DNA from: Hericium rajendrae
Lineage: Eukaryota > Basidiomycota > Agaricomycetes > Russulales > Hericiaceae
Assembly: GCA_033439255.1 (NCBI GenBank)
Contig: CM065879.1
Span: 2,518,501 to 2,582,500 of the forward strand
Direction of reading: 5' to 3'
Length of the DNA stretch: 64,000 nucleotides
This document shows, one piece after another, positions 856 to 61,682 of this stretch (positions are counted from its first letter, which is position 1; each line of letters opens with the position of its first letter). The notes beneath the pieces were generated by a model that saw only the letters and a list, made by a program, of their open reading frames with translations, ran no database searches and was not told the DNA's origin. A program made the position numbers and the translations under genes.

Positions 856-1744
856 AACACTATCTAACTAGTCAATGGAGGTCCTGAGTAGACCTCATGC
901 CCTTCCAATCCTTGTGCATTGTGTGTGCGCAGGAACAGGCATGTGCTCACCCAGCCATGGCGTACATGGGCAGCATGGCACAGCGGGATGCGCAGATCCC
1001 GCGTGGCCCTACACTGCATGGCCGTGCACCATGTGAGGCAGTGTGAGATGTCATGTGGGGATCGTGGGGCCATGCGCAACATGATGTGGTCATGCGAAGC
1101 TGTCTGCGGATGGGGCATCGATGGGCAGGATGGGATATGCGGATCATGCGTGGCCATGCGCGAGCTGGCGTGGCCATGCACCATCGTGCGCGGCCCTGCA
1201 TGAGCTGGTGCGGTCATGCGCGCCATACCATATGTGCACGGGTCGGGGTGACAATGTAGGAGGCAGGGCATCAGCGCACGTGTTGTGCACGAGGCAAGGT
1301 GGGGTGCCCGAGTCATGTGTGGCTGTGTACAAGCTTGCGTGGCCGTGTATGAGCTTGCATGGCTGTGCGCGGAGGGAGGCAGTCATTTGAGGAGCGTACA
1401 TCTGAAAAAATGGTATTTTATATAGCTGCAGGTTAAGTCATGGGTGCTATTATTGAGCTATGAGAGCTATGTAGTTTGCTTATCCAGCTATGTAGAGCTA
1501 TGAGAGCTTCCATAGCTTCCATAGCTATTGGTGTCAGTTATATAGTCTTACTATAGCTTTCATAGCCAGCAGTTTGAAATATATAGTACTATCATACTTA
1601 GTAAGGTGAGCTATGAATACTATTAGTACTATTAGTACTATGTCAAGTCACCCAGGTACTTAGATGCAAAATATTTAAAGTCAAAATTACTTATATTCAG
1701 TATAATTCTACTACAGAACAAGTACACTACAAGTACAAATACCG

Positions 1745-2560
1745 CAGGCATGCACGGCATGTACAGGTAGGGCCGCGCACAGGGACAAGTGCACTGATGG
1801 AGTGTGACAAGGTGCACACATCCATGAGGCGCGGCGCGGCGTGGCAATCGTGGACAATGCGGCAGTCAGGTGTGAAGAGCGGCAGGCCCGTGCAAGAGGC
1901 GCACGGGGGGGAGTGAGGGACGGCAAGATATCGGTGGGTGTTAGGTGCCGCATTCAGGGCAGGGGCGCGCGCGCGAGGTGTGGAGGCCAGGCATGGGGTG
2001 TCGAAGGCGGCGCGAGGCAGGGGCTGGCAACGGGCCCATGTGCAAGGCACGGGAGGTGAGCATGCGGGGCAGGCGCAACGTGGCAGAGCCCATGCGCGGC
2101 GTGGCAGGCCCACGCCGGAGGCGAGGTGCTGGGGACGTGCAATGCGCGGCGGGCATGTGCGAGATGTCGGCAGGCTGCGCAAGGCCCGCGCGTGACTCGC
2201 GGGGTGGCGCAAGGCACACAGTGGGCGCACAAGGCCCGTGGGGTGTGCGCGAGGCTCCTCGTTCGTGGCTCCAGTCGTGCGTGTGCTGACCTGACCGTAC
2301 ACAAGGGCGCGGGCATGGTCGCGGGCCGTGTCCATCCGTTCGTGCACTGGTGCGGACGTGCGGGGCTGCCCGTGCACCTATGAGGCCGTGCGCGGGCAAA
2401 TCGGGTGCACTGGCAGCCGTATGCAGGCATTGCAGCAATGCACGGTGCCGGTGATGTGTCGTGTGTGGCGAGGGCGCGTGGTGGAGTAGGCCCAGAGGTC
2501 ACGTCGCAAGACCTAGGATAGTGGTGAGATGGGGAATGTGCTACTACATGCTGGCAGCTA
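1745..2560. repeat. GC-rich variable arm of element A
   Basis: A GC-rich, CpG-bearing block with many near-repeats of GTGCGCGAGGC- and CATGCG-type words. Open frames occur in several frames on both strands only because stop codons are rare at this composition. None has a convincing start, splice pattern or domain, so I call it non-coding. It occupies the same place as the GC-rich arms of the other copies. Confidence 0.6.
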
Positions 2561-2787
2561 ACTACTCGAATGATGACTAAGCATCAGGGAAACTCCCGCA
2601 GATCACGTGCTCTATGGCAGTAGGGACCCCCTTGGTCCCTACTCCAGCGGATGGCGACGAGATGGGGCGGGGTGTGGACGGGCAGCGACAGGGAGACGGG
2701 GACGGGGATGGAGTGAGCAGGACGGTGGGCGCGGGCTGTTGGAGCCACACAGTGATGCGCAGGAGGCAGAGCGAGGCACGCTGAACG

Positions 2788-2813
2788 AGTCTCATTGTCG
2801 TGGCAACGAGACT
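2788..2813. repeat. hairpin 2 of element A
   Basis: Imperfect 26-bp inverted repeat with 12-bp arms around a GT loop; the core is TTGTCGTGGCAA. Equivalent hairpins sit at the matching place in B, E, F and H with different but still complementary outer arms. Confidence 0.7.
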
Positions 2814-2935
2814 TGATGACATCGTCGTCTGCGTTGTCGAGGGAGTGGGGCAGGTAGGATGTGGTGAGCGTTGGCGCGGAGTATCGTAACGTGTCGTGCA
2901 GAGGTGGAGGCGATTGGCCTGAAGGCAGAGAAAAC

Positions 2936-2968
2936 GAGTATCACTCGTGCAGAGCATGAGCGATACTC
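2936..2968. repeat. hairpin 1 of element A
   Basis: Inverted repeat with 15-bp arms (2936-2950 and 2954-2968) containing GAGTATC and GATACTC. Two positions are not Watson-Crick pairs: one can form G-U in a plus-strand transcript, the other in a minus-strand transcript. It lies about 50 bp beyond the minus-strand donor at about 3014. Confidence 0.75.
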
Positions 2969-3329
2969 ATTTTATTAGCACGATACAAAAATAGAAAAGA
3001 CCATGCATACTTACCTGAAAGCCCTCAGCCCAGTTCTAAGCCCTCCTGACCGTGAGGCGACGCGAAGCGTCGAGTGTGTGGAGAGGGAGGTACGGGGTTG
3101 GAGACGAGAGAGGAGGGAGTGATGAGGTTGAAAGCACAAGTCGCGCTTCAGCCACAGGACTCGACTTGCGCGGTTGAGTTCTTTTGAGCAGAACAAATTG
3201 AATAAATCAATTTTAAATCAGAAAAAAAGACTGGTGTTACAGAATGTACATAGGCCAACATAACATGAGAAATGATCCTAGATACTGTACCGTAGGCCAC
3301 TGACCAGTGACAACAACTTACTCAGATCT

Positions 3330-3420
3330 GGCACTTAGCCTCTGTTGCAAAGCCCGGCAACCTTCGGCCCGGCGCTCGGCAGCCACGTTTCGGGCCCCGC
3401 TCGCAACGCCTATATAAGGC
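3330..3420 (+). promoter_or_regulatory. core promoter of element A with TATA box
   Basis: TATATAAGGC stands at 3411-3420. About 75 bp upstream is a conserved block around AGCCTCTG followed by GCCCGGC. The same pair of blocks occurs in B, C, E, F, G and H at the same spacing. The likely transcript runs rightwards into a leader with the donor AAGGTAAGT near 3609. Confidence 0.65.
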
Positions 3421-3771
3421 ATGCACGACGCGCATTGCCTCTTGCTCTTGAACCCCCACTATCCCTTGCCACATTGATGCATTTGTCGTCGTTGTTTCTC
3501 GCTCGCCGTCGTTTGCTTGCTCCTCATTGTCGTTTGCTCGCTCCTCGTCATCATTTGCTCGCTCCTCATCGTTGTTTGATTACTCGTCATCATTATTCTC
3601 TTCGTTGTTAAGGTAAGTTCTCATTCTTAATTATCTTATAACGTATATACTAATGTCTTTATACTTATTACAGTACTATTGTAGTCTTAATGGGTAAATT
3701 TTATTATATCTTATACTAATGTCTTTAAATTGTCTTGTAGATTTTCGCTTTTTTGTTAGTTTGGTGAGTCT
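3421..3771 (+). ncRNA. predicted spliced non-coding leader and micro-exon, element A
   Basis: Downstream of the TATA box is a C/T-rich leader with no long frame shared between copies, ending at the donor AAG/GTAAGT (about 3611). An acceptor TTGTAG (about 3740) follows. The next 23-25 bp contain TTTTCGCTTTTTT and run into a second donor, GTGAGTC (about 3765). Similar acceptor, TTTTCGCTTTTT and donor trios occur in B, E and, less clearly, C, F and H. Splicing and transcription are inferred from sequence alone. Confidence 0.45.
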
Positions 3772-4838
3772 TCATGTGTTATCTTTATTATCTTCTAATA
3801 GTCATGTCTTTTCTTATTTATATTTATCTTATCTTATATTTTGTTATCTAATCTAATCTAATCTATTTCTATGAAAAATAAATAGTTTGTATTAGATATT
3901 TTTATAGTTGTTTGTATAGTTTGATTAGTTTGTATTATTGCTATATAATGTTTAATAAGATACAATTGACTTACTTCTATGGTTAGTTTTATTGTGCTAT
4001 AATATTTTTATTTTATATGTCAAATTTTAAAATAATTTAGAGAGATGAACTATAGTGTAAAAAGTTGACATAGCCTTGAGAATCTGAGATAACATAAATA
4101 GTATTCATATAGTCTATGGTATAAATAGTATATATATTATGTATAGTTAGCATAGCTTGTATAGCTATTTTATACTATGATATCTATACCTTATAGTAAG
4201 GTAGCTATGATAGCTATGATAGCTCTCTATAGCTTTCTTATTTGGCTCTATAGCTCTATATAGATGAGCCTTAAGCTATATAGAGGTATGAAGAAAAGGA
4301 GACAGCTATGGAGCTATTAGAACTATGTAGTCAATATAGTCATATATAGCTCTAGCAATTTTCTCAGATGTACACGGACTCGTGCTGTCATGCGGGCCCT
4401 GTTCGTGTGCACAGAGTGAGGTAGTCGTGAGCCGCGGGATGCACAGGATGGGACGGGGTGTGCCAGTCTTGCGTGACCCTACACGCACTCATGTGGACCC
4501 GCATGGACCTGCGTGGTCATGTGCTTGCATGTGAGAGCTGGCGCAGATGGTACCCGTGCCATTCGGGCATGCGAGCATGTATGCATGCAAGTCGGAGCCT
4601 CGCGCAAGTGGGCACCATGTGCTGCCATGCGCGTGCTGGCTGGGCCATTCGCGGGCGTACGCCTAGCCACATGTCGTGGCCCGAGTGTGTTGTCGATGGC
4701 ACGAAGGTGATGGTGGGCAGACAGATGAGGGCCTTGTGAGGGCCTTGTGAGATGATGGGCCTGCACGAACCTGTTGAGGACGTGCGGGATTTGTTGAGGC
4801 GATACAAGGGCAGGAGGCCGGGGGAACGACGTGTCGCA

Positions 4839-4860
4839 CCTCATTGCCATGGCAACGAGG
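4839..4860. repeat. hairpin 2 of element B
   Basis: Near-perfect 22-bp inverted repeat centred on TTGCCATGGCAA, arms CCTCA and CGAGG (one A/C mispair where H has a G-C pair). Confidence 0.7.
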
Positions 4861-4984
4861 CACGACAACGTGAACACGGACAGTGTTGTCAGGGCGATGG
4901 GACTGCGACGGGCTCATGGATGTGGGTGCGGGGTGTTGAAGGTGATGGGGACATGGTGCGTGCAGTTGCAAGAATGAAAGCACA

Positions 4985-5011
4985 AGTATCGCTCGGTGAA
5001 CGAGCGATACT
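4985..5011. repeat. hairpin 1 of element B
   Basis: Perfect 11-bp arms AGTATCGCTCG and CGAGCGATACT around a 5-bp loop, about 55 bp beyond the minus-strand donor near 5064. Confidence 0.75.
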
Positions 5012-5359
5012 CGCTGTGTTAGTATAAGAAACGAATGAAAGAGAGTTTTTTTACTTACCTATTAGCCTCTCAAGCTGTCCACTAAGCCTTCCCGAGTCTT
5101 GAAGATGCCATGTGTATGGAGAGAGACAGAGACGAAGGAGGAGATGGAGGGAGTGTTGCAAAGACACAAGTCACGCAACGACTTCAGCCACAGCAGCATT
5201 CGACTCTCATGTTTAGCGGTTTCGACTCTAACAAATCAAATAAAATCCATTTAATTCACAAAAAATGTGAGAAGATATAGCACACCGGTAGAAATATAAT
5301 GAATGGACCATCTATGTAATTACTGTACAACACACTTGTAGGTATCAAAATCCACTTAG

Positions 5360-5448
5360 TAGAATCTAACGGCCAGCCTCTGGCACGATGCCCGGCCTGG
5401 TCTCGGCAAGCTACATTTGACACTCCGATTGCCACATCTATATAAGAT
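5360..5448 (+). promoter_or_regulatory. core promoter of element B
   Basis: TATATAAG at 5439-5446, with the conserved block CCAGCCTCTGGCACG about 70 bp upstream and GCCCGGCC after it. Downstream come a leader and the donor CGGTAAGT near 5541. Predicted micro-exons follow at about 5603-5631 and 5692-5719, each with a TTTGCTTT core and a GTAAGT donor. Confidence 0.6.
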
Positions 5449-6867
5449 ATGCACGATGTGCTGTCTCTCTCTCTTCCCTACCACTACCATCCCTCGTTTT
5501 TCGTCGCTCTCTCTTCTTCTGCTTCAACTTTTTAATGTTCGGTAAGTTTTATATTGTTGCTATATTATTTTATTGTTCACTAACCCTACTGTTCTTTGTA
5601 GACTTTTATATCTTTGCTTTATTATCTTAAGTAAGTCTTATGTTTTTCTGTATCTGTATCTTGTATACTAATTTGTTGACTTTGCCTTTAGATTATTTTT
5701 GCTTTTTCTTGTCTGTGGAGTAAGTCTTATCTTATCTTTTTTTGTCTATGTTTTATCTTTAAGTTCTATCTTATCTTTAAGTTCTATCTTATCTTTAAGT
5801 TCTATCTTATCTTATCTTTGTATCTTATCTTATCTTTGTATGTTTTGTTGTCTTATCTTGAAGTGTTGATCTTTACAGTGTATCATAGATGTGTAGTGTT
5901 TGTAGCTTTGTACTAAATGTGCTGTAATTTAATATTGTTTGAAATATAATGCTTTTAAATTTTCGATGTTTTAAATGTTATAGATGCAACAAGATTCAAA
6001 TATATTATATATGTATATTTAAATTTTTTTTAGTACTCTTAAGCAGCATACAAGACATAGGTGATATAGAGTAGATAGCAGCCTTACTAGCTAGACATGA
6101 TATGATAACAGAGATATACCACATAGCTGACACATCTGGAAAAACCGTATGTACTATCGTGAACTACTGTTGGCTACAGTAGCTACAGTAGCCAGAGTAG
6201 TTGACATAGTGTCTGTAGGACTCTTCTTATTTTTCATACCTACAGTAGACAGATATTGTCTACTGTAGTTCACTATAATACAGGTTTACTACTATAGACA
6301 AGTCAAGTTCTCAAAATGTGCAATCTTCTACAAATGCTATAATGTGCTACCACAACTACAGTAGTCCATACATGCTACAATAGATTTATTGCACATATAC
6401 AGTCTGTTATATTTGCAGGTCTTGACCACTCAATATAACATCCAAGTCAATAAAAAAAAACTATGTAGTTCATAAGGATTTAATCAAACAACAATCAAAA
6501 TTTATTAACTAGCAAATACATGGTACTATACAAGGCTATACTATGAGAGGATTCAAAAGTATAGAGACTGTAAGACAAACAAACATTAATAAAGGTCATC
6601 ACAAAAGGTTCAAATGAACACTTACAAACATCACAAAAAAAGCAATATCTAACAAGTAGTAAAAGCTAGTTAGTGAAACATCAAAGACTAAAAGCAACTT
6701 ATCAAAATTTAAAAAAAGCGAAAATGTATACACCCATAGTAAGGGTAAGACATAAGCACAAAGATTACTAGACATAAGAAAAGAAAGACTCACCATGCAA
6801 AAGCTTGAGTCAATGACAGAAGAGATGATGGGGGTTGGAAAGAAAGAGAGGTTGTGCGTCATGCATG

Positions 6868-6960
6868 CCTTATATAGACATCACGAGCGGAGCCTGAAAT
6901 GCAGCTGCTGCAACCTGGCCCGGGTGCTACTGGGTGCTGTGTCAGAGACCAAGACAGCAG
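6868..6960 (-). promoter_or_regulatory. core promoter of element C
   Basis: On the minus strand, a TATATAAGG box (6868-6877) is preceded by a GTCTCTGACACAGC block. Transcription would run leftwards through a donor (GTGAGT, about 6790) toward a segment holding TTTTCGCTTTTTTT near 6712. Confidence 0.55.
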
Positions 6961-7317
6961 ACTTTACTAAGTTTGTGTCACTGTCCAATAGCTTATAGTA
7001 CAGTAGCTAGATAGTTCCATCATTCAAATGAATTAAACTAATGAAATATAGCTACTGTTGTTTTTTCAGATTTATCCTGATTTTATTTGATTTACTACAT
7101 TACAAACATTCGAACTCGCACGCATTCAGTGATTAAACAACTTAACACACATTGAAGTTTCTCGCAGCTGCTACCATCAACTCCCCTCCCATCTCTCCTC
7201 TCCTCCTTCTTTCCTCCCCCTTTCATGTAGAATCAAACACTGGTGGACAGTTATAGGATGATGAGGGCCTGGCAGGTAAGTAAAAAAAAATCTCTTTGTT
7301 TATTTGTGCTAACACTA

Positions 7318-7345
7318 AGAGTATCGCTTATTCAAGCGATACTCT
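7318..7345. repeat. hairpin 1 of element C
   Basis: Perfect 12-bp arms AGAGTATCGCTT and AAGCGATACTCT around a 4-bp loop, about 45 bp after the donor CAGGTAAGTAAAA. Confidence 0.75.
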
Positions 7346-8242
7346 CATTTTCCTTCTCCGTCCCTTCGAGTCACTTCCCGTCGTTGCCCCCTCCTACTTT
7401 GGCCCCCCCTCGATATCACCACCACGTGCCTCTCTCACTTATTGCATGCATGGTGCCACCCACCGATGTGTCGCACCACCCACCAATGCGTCGTGCTGCC
7501 TACCGCATGCCCCTCGCCACCCACCAATGTGTCATGCCACCTACCACCCTGTGCACATCCTGTGCTCGCATGCCACACTGTGCTTGTCCCCTGCCTCTCC
7601 TGCATCATGCCTTGCACACTGCACCTGCCCGTGTGACCATACACATCAGTACTTCGGTCGAACACTGACGCCCTGATGGCCCTGACGGCTTTATTAGCTA
7701 TAATACTTAAGCTCAATATCTTGTTAAAACCCTCGTACAGTCGGTAGAATCAAATATAGTTGATGTATATGATCGTGGTCAAACTTGTGCACTTAGAATT
7801 GTCAGCCTGACAGCCCTGGAGATGAGAATTTGAGCATGAAATTCTTACCCTGACCGTGTTTTAGGCATAGATGAAGCCTGAAGACTGAATCGCACTGACG
7901 TGTTCTGACCACACTGATTGTTACCCTATATGGTAACTGTCAGTGCGGTCAGGGCATCTGCCTAACTACTGATGCATTGCACCATGCCTGCGCTGCGCCT
8001 CACCTGTGTGCTCGCATTCTGTGCCCATGCCTGCACCCCATGCCTCCGATGTGCATGTGTGCTCACCTGCTGCACCACACCATGCCTTGCCCATGTGTCT
8101 GTCCACTGCACTGTGCTGCGCCTCACCCACAAGCCCATCTATTGCGCCATGCATACACTCACAGAATTGCACTCACAGCCACATCCATGCCACGTCGTGC
8201 CTCACCCATGCACCGCACTGCACTGCACGCCCTCTTTGCATG
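7346..8242. repeat. GC-rich arm of element C
   Basis: C-rich sequence with many short imperfect repeats of CCACCNATGCG- and CTGCACC-type words (notably 7440-7560 and 7970-8240). It has no supported gene. It lies between hairpin 1 and the palindrome at 8243-8280. A stretch with ordinary composition (7690-7960) interrupts it. Confidence 0.5.
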
Positions 8243-8280
8243 ACGAAGAATCTTGCCCAAATTTGGGCAAGATTCTTCGT
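8243..8280. repeat. 38-bp perfect palindrome in element C
   Basis: A perfect inverted repeat with no loop: 19-bp arms, the left beginning ACGAAGAATC and the centre CCCAAATTTGGG. It marks the far edge of the GC-rich arm. One half-copy recurs at about 9353-9380 (TTTGGGCAACATTCTTCGT). Confidence 0.85.
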
Positions 8281-8539
8281 CCTGCTCTGTGCCGCTCTGC
8301 CAAGGGCGTGGGAACTTCCAAGGTGACACCTAAGAAATCAGAGGTATCAATATTGCAGTACCACACATCTAGTACTTACCTGATTAATATAATAAAATGA
8401 AAGCCCTGTATTGTGTGAGCAAAATAAGCCTAAGATCATAGAAAATGATGGAGATTTGAGAAAGTGAAAAAAAACTCGCCTAGGAGGGGGAATGATGGGA
8501 CAAGTTTGTCCCTTGCACGATGAAATGTCCACCAATATG

Positions 8540-9070
8540 GACGCGTGAGGGCGTATTTGAAAGCTACAAATTAGAACTTTCAGCCGAGCCTAAGAGAGCT
8601 GTGATACGTACAATATATCCCAAGATATGGCAAAAACACGTTTTGCCACATCATCCAGGAGATCTTGCTGTTGCGCAGCGCTACCTGGTCCTATCGATGT
8701 GTATGTAGGCTTGTTGGAAAGGTATGAATTAGCGCTTTTCAAAACTGTTAAAATGTCATCGATACGTACTGTATTGATCGAGATATGACAAATTCGCTAA
8801 AAGGCGAATTTTGCCTTACTAGGAGGAGAGAATGTCTTGCTGCGGAGCAACGGCTGGTTGGATTGACTCATATGTAGGCTTGTTCGAAAGCTATGAATCA
8901 TAGCATTCAAACAAGCCTATATACGAGCCGATGCATGCCCTGCTCGTTGCGCTATGCCAAGATCCTTCTATCAGTAAGTACCTATCAGAATAAGACAGGT
9001 AACTCACCTAATACTTATCCAAATGCCTCGCATGTGGGCTTGTTCGAAAGCTACAATGAGCATGATTCGA
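8540..9070. repeat. degenerate tandem repeat, period about 160 bp
   Basis: At about 8553, 8704, 8872 and 9030 the sequence returns to a module like GTAGGCTTGTTNGAAAG followed by a TATGAAT-type word. Between modules there are matching words such as GATACGTAC and AGATATGRCAAA. No gene is supported here. A related word, GTTGGAAAGGTACGAATCAG, occurs at about 27485 outside the element. Confidence 0.55.
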
Positions 9071-9927
9071 ACGACGCCAAAATCGTGTAAGTCGACGAAG
9101 GTTTGAGGTCTAGAGAGAAACATTTGTGCTATGATTCAGAAGATTACTTGACGTACCTATCAGAACCATTTTTTGGAGCCAAGGCCCAGATACAAAGCCC
9201 AGAGGCAAGGGCAGTAGTAGAACCTATAATTCCATATGCATTAGTATCAATACATACTGTGAACTTACCTTGAGACAGGACTTCAATGTTTCAACTTGTT
9301 GAGTTGCAGTGCTCCAGTACAGCCACACTTGAGACGACAAATCATGCCTATATTTGGGCAACATTCTTCGTCCTGCTGCTCACACAATGTGGCAACACTC
9401 AACTCTATACAGTCTTAAGTAAACTTATGAGAGTTGATCATATATATCATATTTATGTTGCTAACTAATGGTATATGTATATAAGAATCATAGAATAGTT
9501 AAAGTCAATGATATAATGCATGTTAATATGTTGTCTACTGCAGCTACAGCAGGTGCATCATAGCTACAGCAAGCAGATGATGTCTACAGATTCTTTGATC
9601 AAAATGTGCCTTGCATAATTATGTGCTACAGAAGCTACGGCTAAATTACAGTGGTCATGATTCTTCTATTACATCACTAAGTCTAGATCAGTAGCGCTAA
9701 TCTGACATCAGTAGCGCCCATCAAACTTCTGATGATCGGTAAGCATGTTTGATGGATTTGCAGTTTTTCCTGATGGCCATAGCTATGATAGCTATGATAG
9801 CTATGATAGCTCTATATAGATTACCTCACTACTATGGAGTAGCTATGTAGAAAAGAGGACTCCTATGGCCCTATCAGAGCTATGTAGACTATATAGTGTC
9901 ATATACCACTGGTCCTTTTCTCAGATG

Positions 9928-11834: not shown

Positions 11835-12037
11835 CATCTGGAAAAACAGTTTTTTGGGTGATAGCCGAGGTATGGCTATGATAGCCGAGCCTTGGCTATA
11901 GTAACTGAGCCTTGGCTACTGTAAGCCACCGGTTTGATATCTGGAGGCCCGACAATCTTACAAAGCCAGAACTGCAGCTACCATATGTCCTGTAGCACTG
12001 GTAGATCACAAAAATAAACTGTTCCCTCTGAGCTATT

Positions 12038-12460
12038 TGTCACGGATCGCTCCATTTCTCTCCGCCTTCTTCTCTGCCATCAAGGCATTGCGTTGGTCAT
12101 GTGCTCCAGCAGCCTCATCACATGTTCACTTCCTCACATGACCTGGGGCTATCCTTCACCCATGCCCTTGTTCCCCTTTGGGACATCCTATTGTTCTCCC
12201 TCCCATTGTTCTCCTTTTGGCCACCATTGTTCTCACTCTATTGTTCGACCCATTATGGTGTCCATTGTTCTTTTCCCATTGTCGTCCCAGTACTTATAGG
12301 CTCCCTGTCGCTCGCCTATTTCCCTAGATTGTCCATTTCGTCTGTACCGTACTGTACCTCCAATACAGGTCACTGCGCTGCTAGTCGCTCTCTGCTCTCT
12401 CACTCCCATCATCGCTGGTGACTTGGGTGGTTCTCTGCTGTCTACGACCGAGTCTTGACA
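12038..12460 (+). repeat. 5' LTR of gypsy copy 1
   Basis: 423 bp, TG...CA termini, matching 18716-19138 with five transitions by eye. Short open frames inside it are shared by both LTRs and have no protein features. Confidence 0.95.
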
Positions 12461-13003
12461 CCTGGACAATCTCTCATACACCTGCCTCACCTCCCTACTA
12501 TCACCCATCATACCTTTCTTCTTTGAACCCTTCACCGCTGACATCTTCACCGAATCCCGACATCCATTCCATCAACCTCATCTCCCCTTTCCCATCGCCA
12601 ACACCATCGAGGGCAGTGCACTCATCCCCCTCCTCCGCTATTGTGCTGTGAAGCGTTGGGAAGCCGAAGGAGTTTGGTTTCGATTGAGGTCGTGGAAACC
12701 ACGTGCAGGTGCTATCTCCATTGCCTTATACGTTCGAATTCGAGTTTCCTTTGACGTCGACTTGCAAGAATTCACGTTCGGTGCCTCGGATATCGCTTAC
12801 CACTGTCGCCAACCCAACCGAGGATCCCCTGCAAGTATCCTACCATCGACCTCGTTCCCCTTTTGCACACTAGGTCTCTTCACCCCCGAACCCTCGCCTG
12901 AGCCTGTGTGGGCCAGAGAACGCCTCGGCCACCGATTCCTCAGAAACCCGTACTTGGACCCCCTGTACCCTCGTGCTCTTGGTCGTCGCCCAGTCGCGGC
13001 TGA

Positions 13004-14689
13004 CTTCTTCTAGACCTCACCATTGATCCCACCGACCCCCGTTTCCAGACCACAGAACCATACCCACTCGGCATCTTTGCCTCGCTCGACAAATACTTCA
13101 TCTACACCCTTTCTGGCATCGTTCGAATAGACTTCGTCACTCCGGACGAGGACGAGGACGATCCCGCACAGTGGTACTTCGCTGATCGTGACGACCAGGC
13201 AGACCTCGAGCTTAACGACTTCGACGTCGCAGCCACAGAACACCGCCGCCAACACCCCGCTACCCCGCCGCTTCCCACCGTCACCCTTCCTAGTGCAGAT
13301 TCTCCCCCTGCTCGCACCACCCCACTTGTTGTTCCCCCAGGTATTACCTTCAACCCGGTAACCAACAACTACTACGCATACCGCTCCGACACCAATCAGC
13401 TTGTAGTCAGTTGGAGACCCAGCCTCGTAGAAGAAAGTGACCTGTGGTTTTGGCAGGCCAGTACCCTCTTCTTAACCACTGCAGAACTCGCACTCTCTCA
13501 AGCAGTTATAGAGAATCTCGCTCAGCAACAAGCTACCCGCCTCGATACCCTTCGGGCCCCACTACCACCACCTGTTTCGACGCCTACCCCAGTACCAGTC
13601 CCCTCACCTGCTCTACCCGTTGCTGCTGTTGCATCGACATCCACCATCAATGTCAAACCAATCATTACCACAGCTCCCCCTGTTCAGCCATCCATCGATA
13701 TGTCCAACCCTGAGATCGGCGTCAAACCTGCTCCCTTTGAGGGAGATCGTTCCAAGTCCAAGGAATTCCAGCTGCGTATTCGCTTATTCCTTCGCGCCAA
13801 TTCTGTCAGGTATCAAGATGATACCGCCCAGATCTCCCTCTTCCTCGACCTCTGCCAGGGCCCTATCGCCGGCCAGTGGGCCACCCAGCGCGTCGAGGAG
13901 ATCCTTGAGGATGACGATCTCGTGGCTGCAAACACATCTCCAGCTCATGTTCCCCGTTACGCCAATCTCACCGCCCTTCGAACTCGCTTCAACTTGGACT
14001 TCTCTCCCCTTGACGACTCCAAGGATGCCTCCCATGCTATCCAGACCCTCCAGATGGGTACGCGCCCAGTAGTCGACTACATCACCGAGTTTGAGTCCTT
14101 CGCCCCTCGCACCGGCTACAATGACGTGGCCCTGATCGACTGGTTCCTGCATGGCCTCAACAGCGCCCTGCGCGATGATTGCCAGTGCAGCTACCCCACG
14201 CCCACCACCCTGGCTGAGTGGAAGGTGAGGGCCCGTGACAGGAATGCTGCCTACCTCATGCGCACCCGGTTCCAGAGTCCCCGCCCTACAACTGGGCGCA
14301 CCCTGGTGAGCACTCGCTCTCCTCAGTCCACATCTACTGGCCGATCCCGCACAGTTGCTGCTACAGGTGCCCCACTGCCCAAACTCTCGGAGCCTGACCG
14401 TGAGCGCCTCAGGCGTGAGGGCGGTTGCTTCTGCTGCCGCCAGAAGGGCCATGGCTTCCGCGACTGCCCCCTCAATGCCGACTCCAACCCCCGTGCCCCA
14501 ACCCCTCGTGTCCGAGCGCTAGAAACCGGCTCTGCCCCGGGAGTAGCTTCAGAAGATGCAGCCGTCACCCTCGCTGTCCCCGCCATCAACAGATCCATCG
14601 CCGACTTATCGTCGCAGTTGAAGGACTTGAGCGAGGAAGAGAGGGAAGAGGCAAAGGCTGCATTAAAGGATATGGTTGAGGGTTTTTAA
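13004..14689 (+). CDS. gag: Gag polyprotein of gypsy copy 1
   Basis: Structural capsid/nucleocapsid protein of the retrotransposon, acting in cytoplasmic virus-like particles. The frame is open from 13004 to the TAA at 14687, about 560 codons. It has an acidic N-terminal region, a Pro/Thr-rich linker, a capsid-like domain (from about 13700, reading IGVKPAPFEGDRSKSKEF then a retrotransposon-gag fold signature around YITEFESFAPRTGYND) and a CCHC zinc knuckle, C-x2-C-x4-H-x4-C, at about 14427-14470. There is no ATG before 13700, and an in-frame TGA lies at 13001, so either the start is at 13700 or the 5' end has decayed. The pol frame is -1 relative to gag and overlaps its end at a GGTTTTTAAA run. 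Confidence 0.85.
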   Translation, partial: LLLDLTIDPTDPRFQTTEPYPLGIFASLDKYFIYTLSGIVRIDFVTPDEDEDDPAQWYFADRDDQADLELNDFDVAATEHRRQHPATPPLPTVTLPSADSPPARTTPLVVPPGITFNPVTNNYYAYRSDTNQLVVSWRPSLVEESDLWFWQASTLFLTTAELALSQAVIENLAQQQATRLDTLRAPLPPPVSTPTPVPVPSPALPVAAVASTSTINVKPIITTAPPVQPSIDMSNPEIGVKPAPFEGDRSKSKEFQLRIRLFLRANSVRYQDDTAQISLFLDLCQGPIAGQWATQRVEEILEDDDLVAANTSPAHVPRYANLTALRTRFNLDFSPLDDSKDASHAIQTLQMGTRPVVDYITEFESFAPRTGYNDVALIDWFLHGLNSALRDDCQCSYPTPTTLAEWKVRARDRNAAYLMRTRFQSPRPTTGRTLVSTRSPQSTSTGRSRTVAATGAPLPKLSEPDRERLRREGGCFCCRQKGHGFRDCPLNADSNPRAPTPRVRALETGSAPGVASEDAAVTLAVPAINRSIADLSSQLKDLSEEEREEAKAALKDMVEGF

Positions 14690-14691
14690 AG

Positions 14692-17600
14692 CGCCCCCCA
14701 GTCACGTCGTCCGTGGGTGGCAAGAAACATTTCTTTGATCCGTCGAATCGCTTCTCTGTACTATCCGACCCCTGTGAGCAATCGTATCCATCGTCTTTGT
14801 GCATGTCCGCTATCACGCCCAACCGTCAGACACCATCCATTACGCTCCAGGCCAAGATTATCACTGCCCCGATCAAGAAACAAATCGACGCTGAGGCACT
14901 TCTCGATAGTGGTGCAGAAGGCATCATTATGCACCCTGAGTTTGCCAAGAAACACCAGTTCCCCCTCAAGAAACTCCCTAAACCCTTTCCCGTTCGCAAC
15001 GTGGACAACTCCGAAAACATCATGGGCTGGGTCCGCTATTCAGTCAACCAGAACATCCGCATTTACGCCAAGGACTCGACGTCCTTCCATGAGGAGACAG
15101 CTGAGTTCTATCTCGTTGATATTGGCGACTATGACATTATCCTTGGGACCGATTGGTTACAGGAACACAACCCTGAAATTGATTGGGTCTCTCATCGTGT
15201 TGACATGACTCACTGCCCTCCCTCTTGCACCCTGAATAAGCCCCCGGTCAAAAACCTGTCCACTCGCACAGAACGCCGCCAATCAGCCCCTCGTCCACCA
15301 GTCCTCAGTACTGCTGCTGTACTACTCCCCCCACCTTGTCCCCCTCCATTGCTCCCACTGCCCCTGCCATTTGCTCCTGCCCCACTTCCCAAATACGTGA
15401 TCCCTGCTCGCTGAGTCCAAGGTGTCCATCTTCGCTGCATCCACCTGTCCAAAGTCCCTGCACGTCTGTTTACTGAGGACGATGACCCGCGACCTAATGT
15501 CGATGATGACTGGGTTGAAGAGGGTCTTCGCCTAGCTGGTGTTCTCCCTGACTGGGACACACCACCCCCTCCAGATGACGACCCAGACTACCAGCATACC
15601 ATCCGTATCCGTCGCTCTTTCACCAATGCTCAGAAACTGGCTGAGCATGTGGCCGCCCATGTTGCGGAGAAGTCCTTTGCTGAGATGGTTCCCCCTCAGT
15701 ACCAGGATTTCCAACCCGTCTTCGATGAGGAATCCTCCCATCGCCTTCCTGAACGTCGCCCTTGGGATCACGCCATCGACCTGAAAGATGGTTTTGAACC
15801 CCGTTCATGCAAGGTCTATCCCATGGCTCCCACTGAGCAGGAGGACCTCGATTCGTTCCTTGATGACCAGGTCAAAAAAGGCTACATCCGTCCGTCCAAA
15901 TCCCCTATGGCGAGTCCCTTCTTCTTTATCAAGAAAAAAAATGGAAAACTACGCCCCGTCCAGGACTATCGCACCCTCAACAAGGGCACCATCAAGAATG
16001 AATATCCCCTGCCCCTCATCTCTGAACTCGTTGACAAGCTCAAGGGTGCCAAAGTCTTCTCCAAGATGGACGTTCGTTGGGGTTACAACAACGTTCGCAT
16101 CAAGGAGGGCGACGAATGGAAAGCTGCCTTCAAAACCAACCGCGGTCTCTTTGAACCCCTGGTGATGTTTTTTGGTCTTACAAACTCCCCTGCCACGTTC
16201 CAAGGAATGATGAATGAACTTTTCAAGGATCTCATTGACACGGGCAAAGTCGTCATCTACATGGATGATATCCTCATTTTCACCGAAACCCTCGAAGAAC
16301 ATTGTGACCTTGTGCGCAAGGTCCTCCAACGCCTCCAGGACAATGACCTCTTCCTCAAACCAGAGAAGTGCTCTTTCGAGCAGCCCTCCGTTGAGTTCCT
16401 CGGTCTCATCGTCTCCCATAACACGCTTGCCATGGACCCCGTCAAGGTTGCAGGCATCGCTGAATGGCCTGCCCCCCGTAACGTCAAGGACGTCCAGTCC
16501 TTTGTTGGCTTTGGCAACTTCTATCGACGCTTCATCCAGGACTTCTCCAAAGTCGCCCATCCCATGTTTGACCTTACCAAGAAAGACCATCCTTGGGCCT
16601 GGTCTGCTGAATGTCAACATGCCTTTGAGGCTCTTAAAGCTGCGTTCACCTCATCCCCAGTCCTTATCATGCCTGACCCATCCAAACCCTACTTGGTTGA
16701 GGTCGATGCCTCAGACTATGCCACAGGAGGTATCCTATCCCAGCGCGGGGAGGACAAGCAATGGCACCCTGTTGCTTACATCTCCAAGGCCTTCACTGCC
16801 CCTGAACGCAACTACGACATTTATGACAAGGAACTCCTGGCCATCATCCGCGCCCTCGAAGCCTGGCGCCACTACCTGGAAGGCTCTCCCCATACTGTGG
16901 AGATCTGGACCGACCATAAGAACCTGGAATACTTCAAGTCTGCCCAAAAGCTGAGTCGTCGTCAGGCTCGCTGGGCTCTCTTCCTCACTCGTTTCGACTT
17001 CACCTTGATCCACAAACCCGGTATTCATCACCGGCCAGATGCCATGTCGAGACGACCTGACCATAGAGAGGGGGTGGACGACGACAACTCAGATCGTGTC
17101 CTCCTCGACCCCAAGTACTTCCAGATTCGTGCTACACGTCCAGCCGCTGTCAAGTCCATTGGCAATGCTGATCTTCGCCAACGCATTCGCAATGCCAAGA
17201 CCAAGGATATTGAGGTCGTTCAAGCCCTTGACGTGATCCTGAACAACGGTCCTCGCTCCCTCGTCAAGAACCTCCAAGAATGGAACTACGAGGATGGCCT
17301 CATCCTCTTTCGTGGCAAAGTCTACATCCCTGCTGACAAAGACCTTCGTCGAGATATCGTCAAACTGCATCACGACACTCCCATGGCTGGTCACCCCGGA
17401 CGCTACAAGACCTACGAGCTCCTCAGTCGCAACTACTGGTGGCCCGGTATGTCTGTCTTCATTTGTGATTATGTCGATGGCTGTGCTACCTGCCAGGCCA
17501 CCAAGGTTCAAAATCACCGCCCTCATGTTGAAACAATTCCCAATGCCATCCCTACCCGTCCTTTCCAAGACATTACCTCAGACTTCATCGTCAAACTCCC

Positions 17601-19138: not shown

Positions 19139-19293
19139 CTATTCTGCACTCTCAAAGGCATGCTTTAATGCCCAAATCATTCTTTGATTTCACTATAGAT
19201 GTTCACAATGATTCTCATTGAGCCTACAGTAGTTACAAAAACAATATAATTTACAAGATTCTAATATATCTTCTTCAAAGGATCTGAGCGTGA

Positions 19294-47058: not shown

Positions 47059-48395
47059 ATGTCACCTCTCCTGCCCATCCCTTATTCCAGAGCGGTTGCA
47101 TGCCCATACGAGGTTGAAATGGCAGACTATCTTTCTGCCCGCTTTGCAAATGTTCTGGCACAGAGGGGAGCCGCGGGATTGAGCATTAGCGATGTACGAA
47201 GGCCTGCAATACTACCTCTCCATGTCCTGATCGAGTTGGACTTCATTGCCCACAAACTGGCAGATGCCGTGGAAACCAGAGGTATGTTTACGGCATCGTA
47301 CCACGGCATCTGATTGACGTGCTTGGCAGTACAAGTACATTGGGACATGGCTCGCTACGCAGAGCGGAGGAGGACTGAGGACACCCCTGCATTCTTGAAG
47401 CACTATCCGCCTCTATCTGACCACCCAGTGCAGACCAATCCTTGCGTCGGGGTCGATATTGGGGAACAGGCCTTCTTGTGGTACTTGCCTGACTTGTTGT
47501 CAGAGGAGCGTGAAGTATGCCTAGTTTCAGTTGCGATATGCAATATTTTTATGATTTCCACATGCAGAGGAAGATGCTAGAGGCTACAGAGCACCTCAAT
47601 GAACACTTCAAAGTCGCTACCAGCACCAGCCAGGCAACATGGCGTGAGTATGCTGGGCTCTTCATTGATCCCGCGGCAACCCATCGCTTCTCACCTGGCA
47701 CGGTCACCCTCTCTCCAGGATGGTTTGCACAGGGTCATGATGTATGTGCAGTGGATATATGCATATACGTAGGCTACGTTCTGACGTATGTACAGATGCC
47801 AGGTGATGATTGGACGGTGTCAGCAAATTTGAACCCAAAACGTCGCAACAAAATGACAGCGAAACCATTCAAATGGCTCCGAGATATTGCGGAATCCGCG
47901 GCTCTTATCAGTGCAATTCTAGCAGTGGTCAACCCAGACCTTTATCGTGCCGCGGCTTCCGTGATTGGCGTACAGAGGGAAGACGAACACTTGGCTTCAG
48001 TTGCACATCGATGGAGTTCGGTATTCAATGGAGTCTCCATCATATCAAATCGCATCACCCCATCACACAGAGATAGCCAAGGCCTGACTGGAGGCTACGA
48101 CATCTTGTGTACCATAGGAGACTACTCCGGGGCCCGATTCAACCTTCCTGGTTTGAATTGGACCCTGAACTACCCCAGGCGCACAGTCATAGCCGTGGCA
48201 GGGAAGTCCCTGAACCATGCTGTGGGCCCATTCCGCAGAGAGCGTATCTGCTATGCGTGGTTTTTGAGAGACAACGTTCACAAACGGGCAAAGGTTATTT
48301 CTCCAGGCTGGATGAACCTGCGGGAGTATTTGGATTTATTGCCACAGGATAGAGATGGTCTAGCTGATGAAGATGGTGATAATTGCCATCGATAA
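47059..48395 (+). CDS. TET/JBP-family 2-oxoglutarate/Fe(II) DNA-base dioxygenase
   Basis: Predicted nuclear enzyme oxidising 5-methylcytosine (or thymine, in the JBP branch) with Fe(II) and 2-oxoglutarate. Exons 47059-47281, 47330-47514, 47568-47741 and 47796-48395 give 393 residues with all phases consistent and no internal stop. The C-terminal half has the double-stranded beta-helix signature: HRD metal ligands at residues 285-287 (in ITPSHRDSQGLTGGYDI), the distal His near residue 335 (KSLNHAVGP) and an Arg at about 344 (RRERICYAWFLRDNVH) fitting the 2-oxoglutarate-binding position. Length and motif spacing fit the short fungal TET/JBP proteins, which are known to sit next to KDZ transposases. 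It ends 92 bp before the transposase start, same strand. Family confidence is high; substrate is inferred. Confidence 0.87.
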
Positions 48396-48487: not shown

Positions 48488-51400
48488 ATGGTAACCAGAA
48501 AGAGTACTACCAGGGTTCGTCGCAAGGAATTTGGCAATCCAAGTCAACCCGCTCGAGTGGCACTAGTGCTCAAGGAGACGTCCCGCGGATATCGCCAAGT
48601 TGCGATTCCAATCCGTAATGTGAATCCCAGCAACCCGGCCCGCCGGGCCAGGAGCACACCACTGCGCGGCGCATCCGGTCAGCAATCTGGAGAGGGCCCG
48701 AAAGAGGACACCATACCGGATGTGGATCCCGATCGTGTACCCCTTGCAAATACATTAAGGAAGGTAAGTATTGAATTGGCATCGAGTCACGTAGTGCGGC
48801 GGCATGACTGGCTTTACAATAGGGCCAGCATGACTTCCTACGGGAATGGCTTGATGAGCATCAGGATTATCTCCATATCCTGTTGGAGCATGAATGTCGG
48901 CCTGCGGATGGCAAGTGCATCTCATGCAAGGAGCGCCCAGGTCTGTGGAAATGTGGAGATTGTGTGGGCCGACCCTTTGAATGCACGGCATGCTGCGCAC
49001 GGCGCCATCTGGCACTTCCACTCCATCGCGTTGAAAAGTGGACTGGCGAATTTTTTGCACCTTCATGGCTGCGTCTAGCTGGTGTTCGGGTCCACCTTGG
49101 TCATGGTGGAGAAGCATGTCCACATGCTGCGGGAAGCTGGAAGGGAGATGGAGTCCGGGTTGAGGATGAGGACGATGATGCAGAGGATGATCAGACGAAC
49201 CAGAGTAACGAAGACAACACACTGCACTTCCAGACAGATTCAGTCCGCAAGCAGGACATGGATAATGAAGGCAATCTCATTCTCTGCTTGATCGATTCAA
49301 ACGGAGTCCATCAGCTGCCAGTCATATGGTGTCAGTGTCCAGATGCAGAGGCACCAGCAAAGCAGCTGTTTCGGATGGGCTTCTTCCCAGCCTCCTTCAA
49401 TGCACCACAATCTGCATTCACGTTTCATGTTTTGGATGACTTCCGACTGGATAATTTAGAATGCAAGACCACAGCCTGGCATTTCTATGCGAAACTGCGT
49501 CGGCTCACGAGCAGTGCATTTCCGGCCAGTGTACCGGTGAGATACATACTTTCTTGTAATCAGAGGGAAATTTCTTTGATCAGATATTCCTCCAGAATCG
49601 GTACAGAGAGCTTCTCAGAGTAGAAAGAGAATGGCGCGATATGAAGTTGAGAAAATGGTTTGGGGCTGGCCATACGGACTTGGACAAGCCAGATGCCGCG
49701 GGTGCATTTGCGCTGTTTTGTGCAGCATGCCCTCAGCCAGGGTTCAACTTGCCGGACAATTGGAAGGAATTAGATCCACGGAAGTAAGCTGCATGTCACC
49801 TCAAGAATATTCCTCTCAGATTCATACCTCGTCAGGTGGATTTTCTTAAGAACATTTGTCATGGATGGCAATTTTGACTCGACTGGGGTGAAGATGCGAA
49901 AGCCAGAGAATGATGTCCAGCTCAGTGATGGCACCGGATTCATGGTGGGAAGGAAAGAGTATCAGGAACATCTTAAAGTTGCTTTGGAGGTCACCAAGGT
50001 AGGGTGGTTCAGCATTGCCGCGGGTCAAGGTTGCTTGACCATGTTTTAGCGCTCCACCTGCAATGAGCACCGCGCTGTAAACTGTGTCAACTCGGATCGT
50101 CACAACATTGAAAACACCGGAATCGGTGCTACCGCCTGTGGCCATGGTGCTTACTATCCCCATTCTGTTGTTGACTTTCAAAAAGGCGAAAGGTGCGTCC
50201 CGCGGGTTCCATATCGCTATCCCGCAGCATGGCTCATGCACCCCCTCAACCAGACAAATGAACATGGACTACTCCATGTGCCAGGCCATCAACCACAATA
50301 CTGAAGGGATAGAAATCATCTTGAAATACTATGACGTCATTTGTCAATGGTGGAAGCATTTCGATGAGCGAGTAGAGAGAAGTCCATATCTCAACCTTCC
50401 AACGAGTTTGAAGGAAATGAAGAAGGCGATTGGGCTGTTCCATGTCCACGGACACAAGGATACTTGCATCCCGTCGTTCTCACCAAACTACATCATTGGA
50501 GCCAGACAGTTTGATGGGGAAGTCGTCGAAACACTCTGGGCACCACTGAACAAGATTTCTCGCAGTACGTCTGGTATGACGACTTCTCATTGCCGAGAGG
50601 TCCTGGACGACCATATGAATGACTCAAATTGGAAAAAGATGACAGGGATGGGTGGGTTCATTCACTCCCGAGCAATAATCATTGATCCTGATCATGGTGC
50701 ACAGTATCGTACCTTACCCGCAAGTATAAAGAGGGCAAGGCAGGCATTGCGGAGGCACGTCTTGGGTTCGAAAATATCGACGCAACAGTCGGGGCTGAGA
50801 ATAGGGACACGTGGCTCAAAGCAGAGCAGCGTGCGCAGGATAAGCGCAGCGATAAGCCTGAAGTCATGGTCCCGATATATGACACAGTAATCAAAACAGG
50901 TGCACGTAACCTGGTACGACGTGTTCCCGCGGCAAGGGGTTGATTTCCGTGGGATACACAGCCCCTTCAAGAGCAGAGATCCTATCCAAATTGAATGAGC
51001 GAGAGCGAAAGAAGGAAAAGGGGCAAGGTGCCGCGGCATGGATTACTCTAGGACTTCGCATTCAGGAAACTCAGTAAGTCTTGCCAAAGAATGCCTTATT
51101 CATTCAGCATTTCATTCTTTTAATGGAACTGGCAGGCTATCTATCCTAGCACATCTGCGCAAGTTGGGAAAAAACCTTACCGCAGAGCAGAAAAATGATC
51201 TAGCAGACCGCAGACGTCGTCTCCAGGCCAGGGTTTCGACATTTGAGAGGGCGGCAGGCGACTATCTCCCACAGGATACAGATGTCACAGGTGGTGGCAT
51301 CCCATTGTCTGAAAATGAAGGGGAAGACTTCGACCTTGTAGGTGAAGATGGCGAGGATATCGAGCAGCCGGAACAGCAACATGCTCCAGGGAATGCTGCA

Positions 51401-58865: not shown

Positions 58866-59710
58866 CATCTGAGAAAAGGACCAGTGGTATATGACACTAT
58901 ATAGTCTACATAGCTTTGATAGGGCCATAGGAGTCCTCTTTTCTACATAGCTACTCCATAGTAGTGAGGTAATCTATATAGAGCTATCATAGCTATCATA
59001 GCTATCATAGCATAGACTATAAGCTATCATAGCTCTCATAGCTATGTCAGCTATGTGGTATATCTCTGTTATCATATCATGTCTAGCTAGTAAGGCTGCT
59101 ATCTACTCTATATCACCTATGTCTTGTATGCTGCTTAGAGTATTAAAAAAAATTTAAATATACATATATAATATATTTGAATCTTGTTGCATCTATAACA
59201 TTTAAAACATCGAAAATTTAAAAGCATTATATTTCAAACAATATTAAATTACAGCACATTTAGTACAAAGCTACAAACACTACACATCTATGATACACTG
59301 TAAAGATCAACACTTCAAGATAAGATAACAAAACATACAAAGATAAGATAAGATACAAAGATAAGATAAGATACAAAGATAAGATAAGATAGAACTTAAA
59401 GATAAAACATAGACAAAAAAAGATAAGATAAGACTTACTCCACAGACAAAAAAAAGTGAAAATAATCTAAAGGCAAAGTCAACAAATTAGTATACAAGAT
59501 ACAGATATAGAAAAACATAAGACTTACTTAAGATAATAAAGCAAAGATATAAAAGTCTACAAAGAACAGTAGGGTTAGTGAACAATAAAATAATATAGCA
59601 ACAATATAAAACTTACCGAACATTAGAAAGTTGAAGCAGAAGAAGAGAGAGCGACGAAAGACGAGGGATGGTAGTGGTAGGGAAGAGAGAGAGACAGCGC
59701 GTCGTGCATG

Positions 59711-59800
59711 TTTTATATAGATGTGGTGATCGGAGCATCAAATGTAGCTTGCCGAGACCGGGCCGGGCATAGCCGGGCATCGTGCCAGAGACTGGCCGTT
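59711..59800 (-). promoter_or_regulatory. core promoter of element H
   Basis: Minus-strand TATATAAAA at 59711-59719 with the conserved CCAGTCTCTGGCACGATGCC block about 70 bp upstream. Confidence 0.6.
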
Positions 59801-60154
59801 AGATTCTACTAAGTGGATTTTGATACCTGCGAGCATGTTGTACAGTAATTACATAGATGGTCCATTCATTATATTTCTACCGGTGTGCTATATCTTCTCA
59901 CATTTTTCGTGAATTAAATGGATTTTATTTGATTTGTTAGAGTCGAAACCGCTAAACACGAGAGTCGAATGCTACTGTGGCTGAAGTCATCGCACGACTT
60001 GTGTCTTTGCAACACTCCCTCCATCTCCTCCTTCGTCTCCATCTCTCTCTATACACACGGCGTCTTCAAGACTCGGGAAGGCTTAGTGGACAGCTTGAGG
60101 GGCTAATAGGTAAGTAAAAAAACTCTCTTTCATTCATTTCTTATACTAACACAG

Positions 60155-60185
60155 CGAGTATTGCTCGTTCACTGAGCGATACTCG
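60155..60185. repeat. hairpin 1 of element H
   Basis: 12-bp arms CGAGTATTGCTC and GAGCGATACTCG around a 7-bp loop; one U-G pair in a plus-strand RNA. Confidence 0.78.
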
Positions 60186-60307
60186 TGCTTTCATTCTTGC
60201 AACTGCACGCACCATGTCCCCATCACCTTCAACACCCCGCGCCCACGTCCACGAGCCCGTCGCGGTCCCATCGCCCTGACAACGCTGTCCGCGTTCACAT
60301 CGTCGTG

Positions 60308-60329
60308 CCTCGTTGCCATGGCAACGAGG
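60308..60329. repeat. hairpin 2 of element H
   Basis: Perfect 22-bp palindrome, arms CCTCGTTGCCA and TGGCAACGAGG. Confidence 0.85.
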
Positions 60330-61340
60330 TGCGACACGTCGTTCCCCCAGCCTCCCACCCTCATATTGCCTCAACAAATTCCGCACATCCTCAACAGGTT
60401 CATGCGGGCCCATTGTCTCACAAGGCCCTCACAAGGCCCTCATCTGTTCGCCCACCATCACCTTCGTGCCATCGACAACACACTCGGGCCATGACATGTG
60501 GCTAGGCATGTGGGCCACGTACGCCCGCGAATGGCCCAGCCAGCACACGCATGGCGGCACATGGCACCCACTCGTGCGAGGCTCCGACTTGCATGCATAC
60601 ACGCTCGCATGCCTGAATGGCACGGGTACTGTCTGTGCTAGCTCCCGCATGCAAGCGCATGACCACGTGGGTCCATGCAGGTCCACACGAGTACATGCAG
60701 GGCCACGCAAGACTGGCACACCCCGTCCCATCCTGTGCGTCCCGTGGCTCACGACTACCTCACTCCGTGCACACAAACAGGGCCCGCACGACAGCACGAG
60801 TCCGTGTACACTCCTCAAATGACTGCCTCCCTCCATGCATGGCCATGCAAGCTCATACATGGCCATGCAAGCTCGTACACAGCCACGCATGACTCGGGCA
60901 TCCCGCCTTGCCTTGCGCACAATACGTGCGCTGATGCCCTACCTCCTACATTGTCACCCTGACCCGCGCACGTATGGTATGCTGCGCATGACTGCGCCAG
61001 CTCATGCGAGGCTGCACGCGATGGTGCATGGCCATGCCAGCTCGTGCATGGCCACGCACAATCTGCATATCCCATCCTGCTCGTCGATGCCCCATCTGCA
61101 GACAGCTCCGCATGATCACATCACGTTGCGCACAGCCCCACGATCCTCACACGACATCTCACACTGCCTCACATGGTGCACGGCCATGCAGTGTAGGGCC
61201 ACGCGGGATCTGCGCACCCCACTGTGCCATGCTGCCCATGTACGCCATGGCCAGGTGAGCACGTGCCTGTTCCTGTGCACACACAATGCGCAAGGATTGG
61301 GAGGGCATGAGGTCTACTCAGGACCTCCGTTGACTAGTTA
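60330..61340. repeat. GC-rich arm of element H
   Basis: Repeats of CATGGCCATGCAAGCTCRTAC- and GCCACGCATGACT-type words; matches 856-1398 and 4373-4838 of B in reverse. Frames are not conserved as protein between B and H. Confidence 0.65.
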
Positions 61341-61682
61341 GATAGTGTTAGATCTTGTACTTGCCTTGTCTGTTGTAGTCTAGCCTTGAATATAATAAAA
61401 ATTTGACTTACATGTCTTGAATATCTAGGTGGATCATCATAAGGACTGTAGTAACCATAGTAGTCATAGTCCCTCTTGGTAATTATCATAGTCCTATGTA
61501 TATGAGACCCCTAGCTATAGAGGCTATGACACCCTATGTATTTAACACTTCATGCTATAGAGGCTATCATAGGCCTCATAGCTCCATATAGCTAGATAGT
61601 CCAAGTTCATAGCTCCCATAGCTCACTGATAGGGCCCATAATAGGACTTGCTGCTATATATAAAACAGATTTCTCAGATGTG

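Follow-up and report, generated by a model that had tools for sequence, protein, structure and literature searches.

Eight elements in a Hericium rajendrae window are probably non-autonomous Plavaka-group transposons with a conserved promoter-like core

The 64,000-nucleotide stretch of Hericium rajendrae DNA analysed here (the window, C2:2518501-2582500 of a 46.77-Mb genome of 19 contigs) holds eight copies, A to H, of an element with CATCTGRRAAA-type terminal inverted repeats. Judged from sequence, the copies are probably non-autonomous DNA transposons of the Plavaka group, related to CACTA/EnSpm and having PlavakaB-like ends, and we give this reading a probability of about 0.88. It is supported directly by the terminal 11-mers shared with coding Plavaka elements, by subterminal sequence shared in the right order in copies D, E, and G, and by target duplications of the same length. 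Most copies appear to have at their centre a conserved unit that resembles a bidirectional promoter, with splice donors pointing outward and a palindrome. Plavaka itself is already known, and the new aspect is a set of non-autonomous members whose regulatory core is conserved and unusual; no title among those listed from the open-licence literature describes such elements.

The copies were delimited by self-comparison of the window and by inspection of ends and flanks. Letters E to G need not equal those of an earlier note on this DNA.

1399-4370, minus strand: copy A; target duplication TA; sits in copy B; defined by ends, flanks, and an empty site in H
about 856-9927, minus strand: copy B; H-like, broken up by A and C; defined by self-comparison
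6133-9777, plus strand: copy C; CATCTGGAAAA..TTTTCCTGATG and two extra bases; CA duplicated; sits in copy B
11835-22908, plus strand: copy D; target duplication CA; gypsy copy 1 nested at 12038-19139
23914-26640, plus strand: copy E; CATCAGAGAAA..TTTTTCAGATG; target duplication AA; both ends match a Plavaka element on C7
28501-31800, plus strand: copy F; target duplication AA; sits in gypsy copy 2
32365-57381, plus strand: copy G; target duplication AA; sits in gypsy copy 2; a KDZ element, 35170-57285, lies inside; both ends match the C7 Plavaka element
58866-61680, plus strand: copy H; 2,815 bp; target duplication TG; sits in gypsy copy 2

Free of interruption, an element is 2.7-3.6 kb long (copies A, C, E, F, and H). 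Copy B is 91-99% identical to H in three pieces, and its outer left end was not found in the self-comparison. Empty sites are present within the window itself. H is intact where A breaks B, and the two gypsy copies serve as empty sites for each other, copy 1 being intact where F, G, and H break copy 2; at all four sites the duplication is a clean 2 bp. The empty site of C also has CA, but GC stands between the terminal ..CTGATG and the CA, so that this duplication is imperfect. The earlier note had proposed one non-coding group with duplications of TA (A), CA (C and D), AA (E, F, and G), and TG (H), and with empty sites for A, C, and three copies in gypsy copy 1. All of this stands apart from the imperfect CA of copy C.

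The ends are far more frequent than expected by chance. In the window, CATCTGRRAAA has 21 matches with at most one mismatch, against a shuffled mean of 5.45, and none of 100 shuffles reached 21. Genome-wide there are 1,279 exact matches (619 forward, 660 reverse), and 48 (27 + 21) for the reversed motif. CATC is common to the ends; at the fifth position most have T and some have A (the left end of E and the right ends of C and L050). The place lists for ends, palindrome core, and intron-like unit comprise the first places in contig order. From the first 100 places of the list of ends, 17 inverted pairs on C1 were chosen by eye, with at least two similar pairs omitted (296510/300491 and 305888/308607). 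They were joined by 11 of the 12 H-type pairs that the two ends of H located, and the ends alone were read. The twelfth H-type pair (C9:655839-662186, in L052; flanks GT/GT) and the element nested in it (GC/GC) stand outside the count. Exact 2-bp duplications flank 24 of the 28 pairs, one pair has 3 bp, and three have none; if L112/113 and L114/115, one insertion in a duplicated segment, are counted once, the figure is 23 of 27. Shuffling the right flanks in 10,000 trials gave a mean of 3.15 exact duplications and a maximum of 10. By sequence the 24 are TG (5), AA, GA, TT, TA, and CA (3 each), AT (2), CT (1), and TC (1). The earlier note's expectations that the ends recur elsewhere as inverted pairs, that duplications in a larger sample are not random, and that the family fits Tc1/mariner poorly (TA accounts for 3 of 24) are thereby borne out.

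Coding partners with such ends exist in the same genome. For the Plavaka domain PF18759, 123 of 166 candidates were scored, and 132 domain pieces match. Five elements that carry it end in CATCTGGAAAA or CATCTGGGAAA, and their flanks agree in at least 2 bp. One family starts at an identical base, CATCTGGAAAAAGTG, at four places (C2 twice, C4, and C7). One copy was extended to an element of 12,414 bp, at the other end of which stands the inverted CATCTGGAAAAAGTGT. Its three complete copies are nearly identical, and their inverted end repeat is a perfect 16 bp. The 3' sides of 12 further Plavaka genes were inspected, and one of the 12, that on C7, gave a completed element.

C2:3857472-3869885: 12.4-kb Plavaka; duplication TC
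C4:1119862-1132277: 12.4-kb Plavaka; duplication TG
C2:25000-37414: 12.4-kb Plavaka; duplication CA
C9:546613-559938: C9 Plavaka, 13,326 bp; duplication CA; collinear with the 12.4-kb element along its length
C7:2174513-2180901: C7 Plavaka, 6,389 bp; TT on both sides; GGAAAA/GGGAAA ends

The best named relatives of the host transposase are proteins of mushroom-forming fungi, with 65% identity to Dentipellis. Apart from the transposase, the 12.4-kb elements (L042, L047, and L054) also have many open frames, and two strong palindromes lie at 0.32 and 0.51 of their length. Another member of this family is broken (C7:2315557-2318801 and C7:2312054-2312898), and an H-type end, C7:2315556, lies exactly at the break; H-type elements thus appear to insert into Plavaka elements too. 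Some further candidates were set aside. In L120 (C12:1964348) a CATCTGAGAAAAGAG end lies 1.75 kb from an apparently split Plavaka gene, with domain pieces about 12 kb apart, and was not counted; the ends near Plavaka genes in L117, L118, and L123 could not be told from separate insertions.

The similarity between coding and non-coding elements extends inwards from the terminal motif, which is common to all eight copies and Plavaka; long end matches are seen for D, E, G, and H. The right end of D (22704-22908) is 83% identical to the far end of the 12.4-kb Plavaka over 222 columns, and its left end (11835-11866) is 87.5% identical to the other end over 32 bp; 11835-11898 matches the C9/C4 Plavaka end at 78%. 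D and the 12.4-kb element also share short internal matches at palindromic stretches. Copies E and G match the C7 Plavaka at both ends in the same left/right order: the right end of E at 71% over 127 bp (E 6e-11) and its left end at 65% over 204 bp, and those of G at 71% over 77 bp and 67% over 197 bp. The left end of H is 70% identical to the far end of the C7 element over 126 bp. A 3.68-kb element elsewhere, L052:1188-4865, is 90% identical to the far end of the C9 Plavaka over 199 bp. It shares a 48-bp palindrome with the 12.4-kb Plavaka, carries the palindrome of the window elements, and has no coding match to the Plavaka sequence examined. The ends thus link coding with non-coding elements in a chain, by way of the 12.4-kb element and D, the C7 element and E, G, and H, and the C9 element and L052.

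Non-autonomous DNA transposons move by means of a transposase that recognises their ends. In the mechanism we propose, a Plavaka transposase made by coding elements elsewhere would bind the CATC(T/A)GRRAAA ends and the adjoining repeat-rich stretches, excise the element, and join it to the target with a 2-bp stagger, leaving a 2-bp duplication. The earlier note had left the mobilising enzyme without a name. A likely one can now be given, because PF18759 elements with such ends and duplications share the genome, and Plavaka transposase presumably acts in trans on the window elements. The longer, transposase-bearing copy which that note had suggested looking for has its counterpart in the five Plavaka elements, but no Plavaka element was completed that carries AAAAA or AGAAA at each end.

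This last result is one of several that weigh against assignment to Plavaka. For A, B, C, and F, no Plavaka end match beyond the terminal motif is long enough by itself, save for short pieces of B. The long matches of the C7 Plavaka to E, G, and H reach only 65-71% similarity, and the left end of H also matches 54 bp of the other end of that element, so that in this comparison the left/right order is clean for E and G only. The C7 element has flanks that agree over five bases, TTGTT, rather than two, has one in-frame stop in its domain match, and was read without 743 bp of its middle. The interval C1:626169-635219 had been taken for one 9-kb Plavaka with CATCTG ends, but L050, L051, and L053 revealed a Plavaka gene with an independent non-coding insertion on each side, which indicates that pairing of ends around a Plavaka gene can mislead. 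Another candidate, C14:64208-76994, is flanked by CT and CC and has no duplication. Finally, 13 of 15 Plavaka-gene loci have no match to the window's central palindrome with up to six mismatches. Of the other two, L117 has an exact match about 1.3 kb from a CATCAGGAAAA end, which was taken as a neighbouring non-coding element, and the L013 match has six mismatches, a level that the shuffled control also reached. As the Plavaka sequence examined lacks this palindrome, the non-coding elements are not simple deletions of it.

A rival reading places the elements in a different superfamily (Tc1/mariner, KDZ, or one not yet described), with a likeness to Plavaka that is confined to the outermost bases. 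We consider this quite unlikely, despite the missing AAAAA/AGAAA coding element and the KDZ transposon that sits within copy G. Duplications are not restricted to TA, and from the ends of D, E, G, and H the similarity to Plavaka continues inwards for up to 77-222 bp. KDZ was rejected as the mobiliser because of the 8-bp duplication of the window's own KDZ element. That element, 22.1 kb long, has repeat-rich inverted ends of about 1 kb and the duplication CTACATAG; its Pfam matches are Tet_JBP (frame 47514-48392), CxC2 (48823-49620), and KDZ transposase (50081-50887).

A second non-coding family, CATCTGGAAAAAC..GGTTTTTCCTGATG, of about 2.3-2.7 kb, was seen in L044, L050, L051, and L053. Its 28 left ends are 95-100% identical, suggesting recent movement. 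Flanks are AA/AA in L050 and L053 and AG/AG for the left copy in L044; L051 has no duplication. Two copies flank one Plavaka gene on C1 and its duplicate on C11. The window palindrome is absent from the GGAAAA elements L050 and L051, and in L050 a different palindrome lies at 0.41 of the element's length.

The window elements do not encode a transposase themselves and are assigned to Plavaka as non-autonomous elements only. Ten long open frames chosen from them gave no Pfam match at E 0.01. A tblastn search of the window with four Plavaka frames found nothing better than E 0.95, and its positive control worked; no known RNA family reached gathering score in the window. These negatives agree with the non-coding character claimed in the earlier note. 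Stop-to-stop frames of 200-412 codons do occur in A, D, E, F, and G, and together with the retained intron-like unit described below they could mean that the elements encode a fast-evolving or repeat-rich protein after that unit, and are autonomous or semi-autonomous. This is very unlikely: several overlapping frames are open over the same stretch, and the region of F that holds open frames contains a direct repeat.

What most copies have in common internally is an ordered set of signals around a central palindrome, laid out below for H, with the module of A on the other strand.

60156..60184, plus strand: central palindrome of H
59714..59721, strand not assigned: two-strand TATA box of H, at -442 from the palindrome
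60108..60161, plus strand: intron-like unit of H; AGGTAAGTA, a CTAAC branch-like site, then the palindrome
2936-2968, minus strand: palindrome of copy A; its TATA box is at about 3411-3416, placed from the offset of -448

The palindrome, GAGTATCGCTC-loop-GAGCGATACTC, is found in all eight copies with 0-2 mismatches, starting at 2936 (A), 4984 (B), 7319 (C, two mismatches), 21161 (D), 25139 (E), 29909 (F), and 33645 (G). Genome-wide, 342 sites match its core exactly, as against none for the reversed control. On C1, an exact end in the correct orientation occurs no more than 3 kb from 17 of 25 palindromes (mean 6.2 and maximum 13 for shifted positions in 2,000 trials), and eight of the 25 have such ends on both sides (shifted mean 1.4, maximum 6); the list of ends reaches C1:4253126, and six of the 31 palindromes listed on C1 fall outside this test. 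Among the 62 half-sites of the 31, 46 read CG, eight TG, and eight CA at the two positions that the pattern let vary. A stricter pattern, applied to sequences that included 30 Plavaka loci (L009-L038), matched L052 and the window alone; it also missed copy C and L001-L008 (the first eight ends listed, with up to 1.5 kb to each side).

A TATA box readable on both strands stands about 445 bp upstream of the palindrome, at offsets that agree to within 6 bp (A and C -448, E -444, G and H -442). It is present in five of the seven window copies scored (A, C, D, E, F, G, and H; B was left out). When seven elements were shifted at random 5,000 times, a TATA never aligned in five of them. At this position F reads TTATATCG and is broken; neither D nor the eighth element scored, L052:1188-4865, has a box. 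Directly before the palindrome, the intron-like unit AGGTAAGTA..CTAAY..GAGTAT is exact in six of the eight copies (A, B, C, E, F, and H; not D or G) and has 202 exact genome matches (91 + 111), with none for the control. On the other strand, beyond the TATA box, A, E, F, G, and H have leftward GTAAGT/GTATGT donors between -538 and -643; the donor of D is at -364, and C has none near. The earlier note's fixed plan is therefore upheld for the outward donors in most copies and for the hairpins. Its TATA promoter in all copies but D is retained for A, C, E, G, and H but not for F. For a possible derivation of the module from the promoter of the transposase gene, its orientation relative to the transposase side gives no consistent picture, as it differs between E and G on one hand and D and L052 on the other.

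Other palindromes accompany the central one. Matches to GTTGCCATGGCAAC, which we take to resemble the RFX/Crt1 X-box, lie downstream of it at 4843 (B), 30021 (F), and 60312 (H), with weaker ones at 2794 (A) and 33971 (G); the window has 15 such matches with at most two mismatches, and the shuffled mean is 4.0. Copy C has two more strong palindromes outside the module, at 8238-8285 (48 bp) and 8867-8927 (61 bp).

The arrangement suggests that the central unit is transcribed and acts as a bidirectional promoter. Transcription may help the element to persist, and conservation may reflect a benefit to the element, for which open chromatin, outward transcription, or a binding site are candidates. 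A stronger proposal, put forward tentatively and on balance doubtful, is that the group has been selected to keep a complete two-way transcription unit and not a gene. This unit would comprise a bidirectional TATA box and first exons that lead outward to their donors, together with a branch-like site and, where the 3' splice site probably lies, a palindrome. Were it true, what spreads would be a mobile two-way promoter able to open its own chromatin and to splice outward into adjoining DNA, and the palindrome would be a binding site or RNA hairpin that the non-autonomous class acquired for itself.

The module could instead be free of selection and owe its presence to recent common ancestry or to gene conversion, a possibility to which we give limited credence. 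The group's movement is in part recent, as the 28 nearly identical ends of the related, palindrome-free GGAAAA family attest, and window interiors still align (E with G over 457 bp, A with G over 101 bp around the TATA box, and G with H over 104 bp at the module). However, apart from these stretches and the B-H pair, self-comparison gave no interior alignment between window copies. In the listed copies, which by design are exact matches only, donor, branch-like site, and palindrome are constant but the spacer between donor and palindrome differs greatly.

With assignment to Plavaka, an orphan repeat gains testable partners within one genome, a Plavaka transposase and window-type ends. Provided that most elements have an exact end on each side, the 1,279 exact ends point to a total of some 600, a figure that includes the palindrome-free related families. 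The 342 exact palindrome cores indicate a non-autonomous group in which regulatory features have been preserved in place of coding sequence. Should the promoter be functional, the genome would contain hundreds of mobile two-way promoters equipped with splice donors, which could rewire nearby fungal genes.

Several known systems invite comparison. Tc1/mariner elements have a TA-only target duplication, which sets them apart from the present group. Miniature inverted-repeat transposable elements are short, under about 800 bp, and the window elements are too long for that class. CACTA elements have repeat-rich subterminal regions, as do the elements described here. In the available part of its description, MarorhAT-4 is a non-autonomous element with terminal inverted repeats, 597-631 bp long, that lacks a transposase and shares its ends with a coding partner (PMC9674265); the window elements are similar in both respects but are much longer and have the conserved promoter-like and splice unit. 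KDZ elements duplicate 7-8 bp, according to the accessible sections of Kojima (2025; PMC12730594). The KDZ element nested in copy G, with its Tet_JBP domain, conforms to this and has ends unlike those of its host, whose duplications are shorter. The same sections give CACTA/EnSpm CAC ends and a 3-bp duplication. The ends here are not CAC and the duplication is 2 bp, which excludes strict membership, and the earlier note was literally correct that they are not CACTA; nevertheless, Plavaka is grouped there with EnSpm in CMCT. The closest counterpart in those sections is the PlavakaB lineage, with CATCA..TGATG ends and duplications of 2 or 3 bp. Most ends here are CATCTG, no coding was found in the window elements, and the central promoter-like unit with its palindrome is a further difference. 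The likenesses are ends that start with CATC, some being exactly CATCA, duplications of 2 bp in 24 of 28 pairs and 3 bp in one, with which the five Plavaka elements agree, and PF18759 relatives in the same genome.

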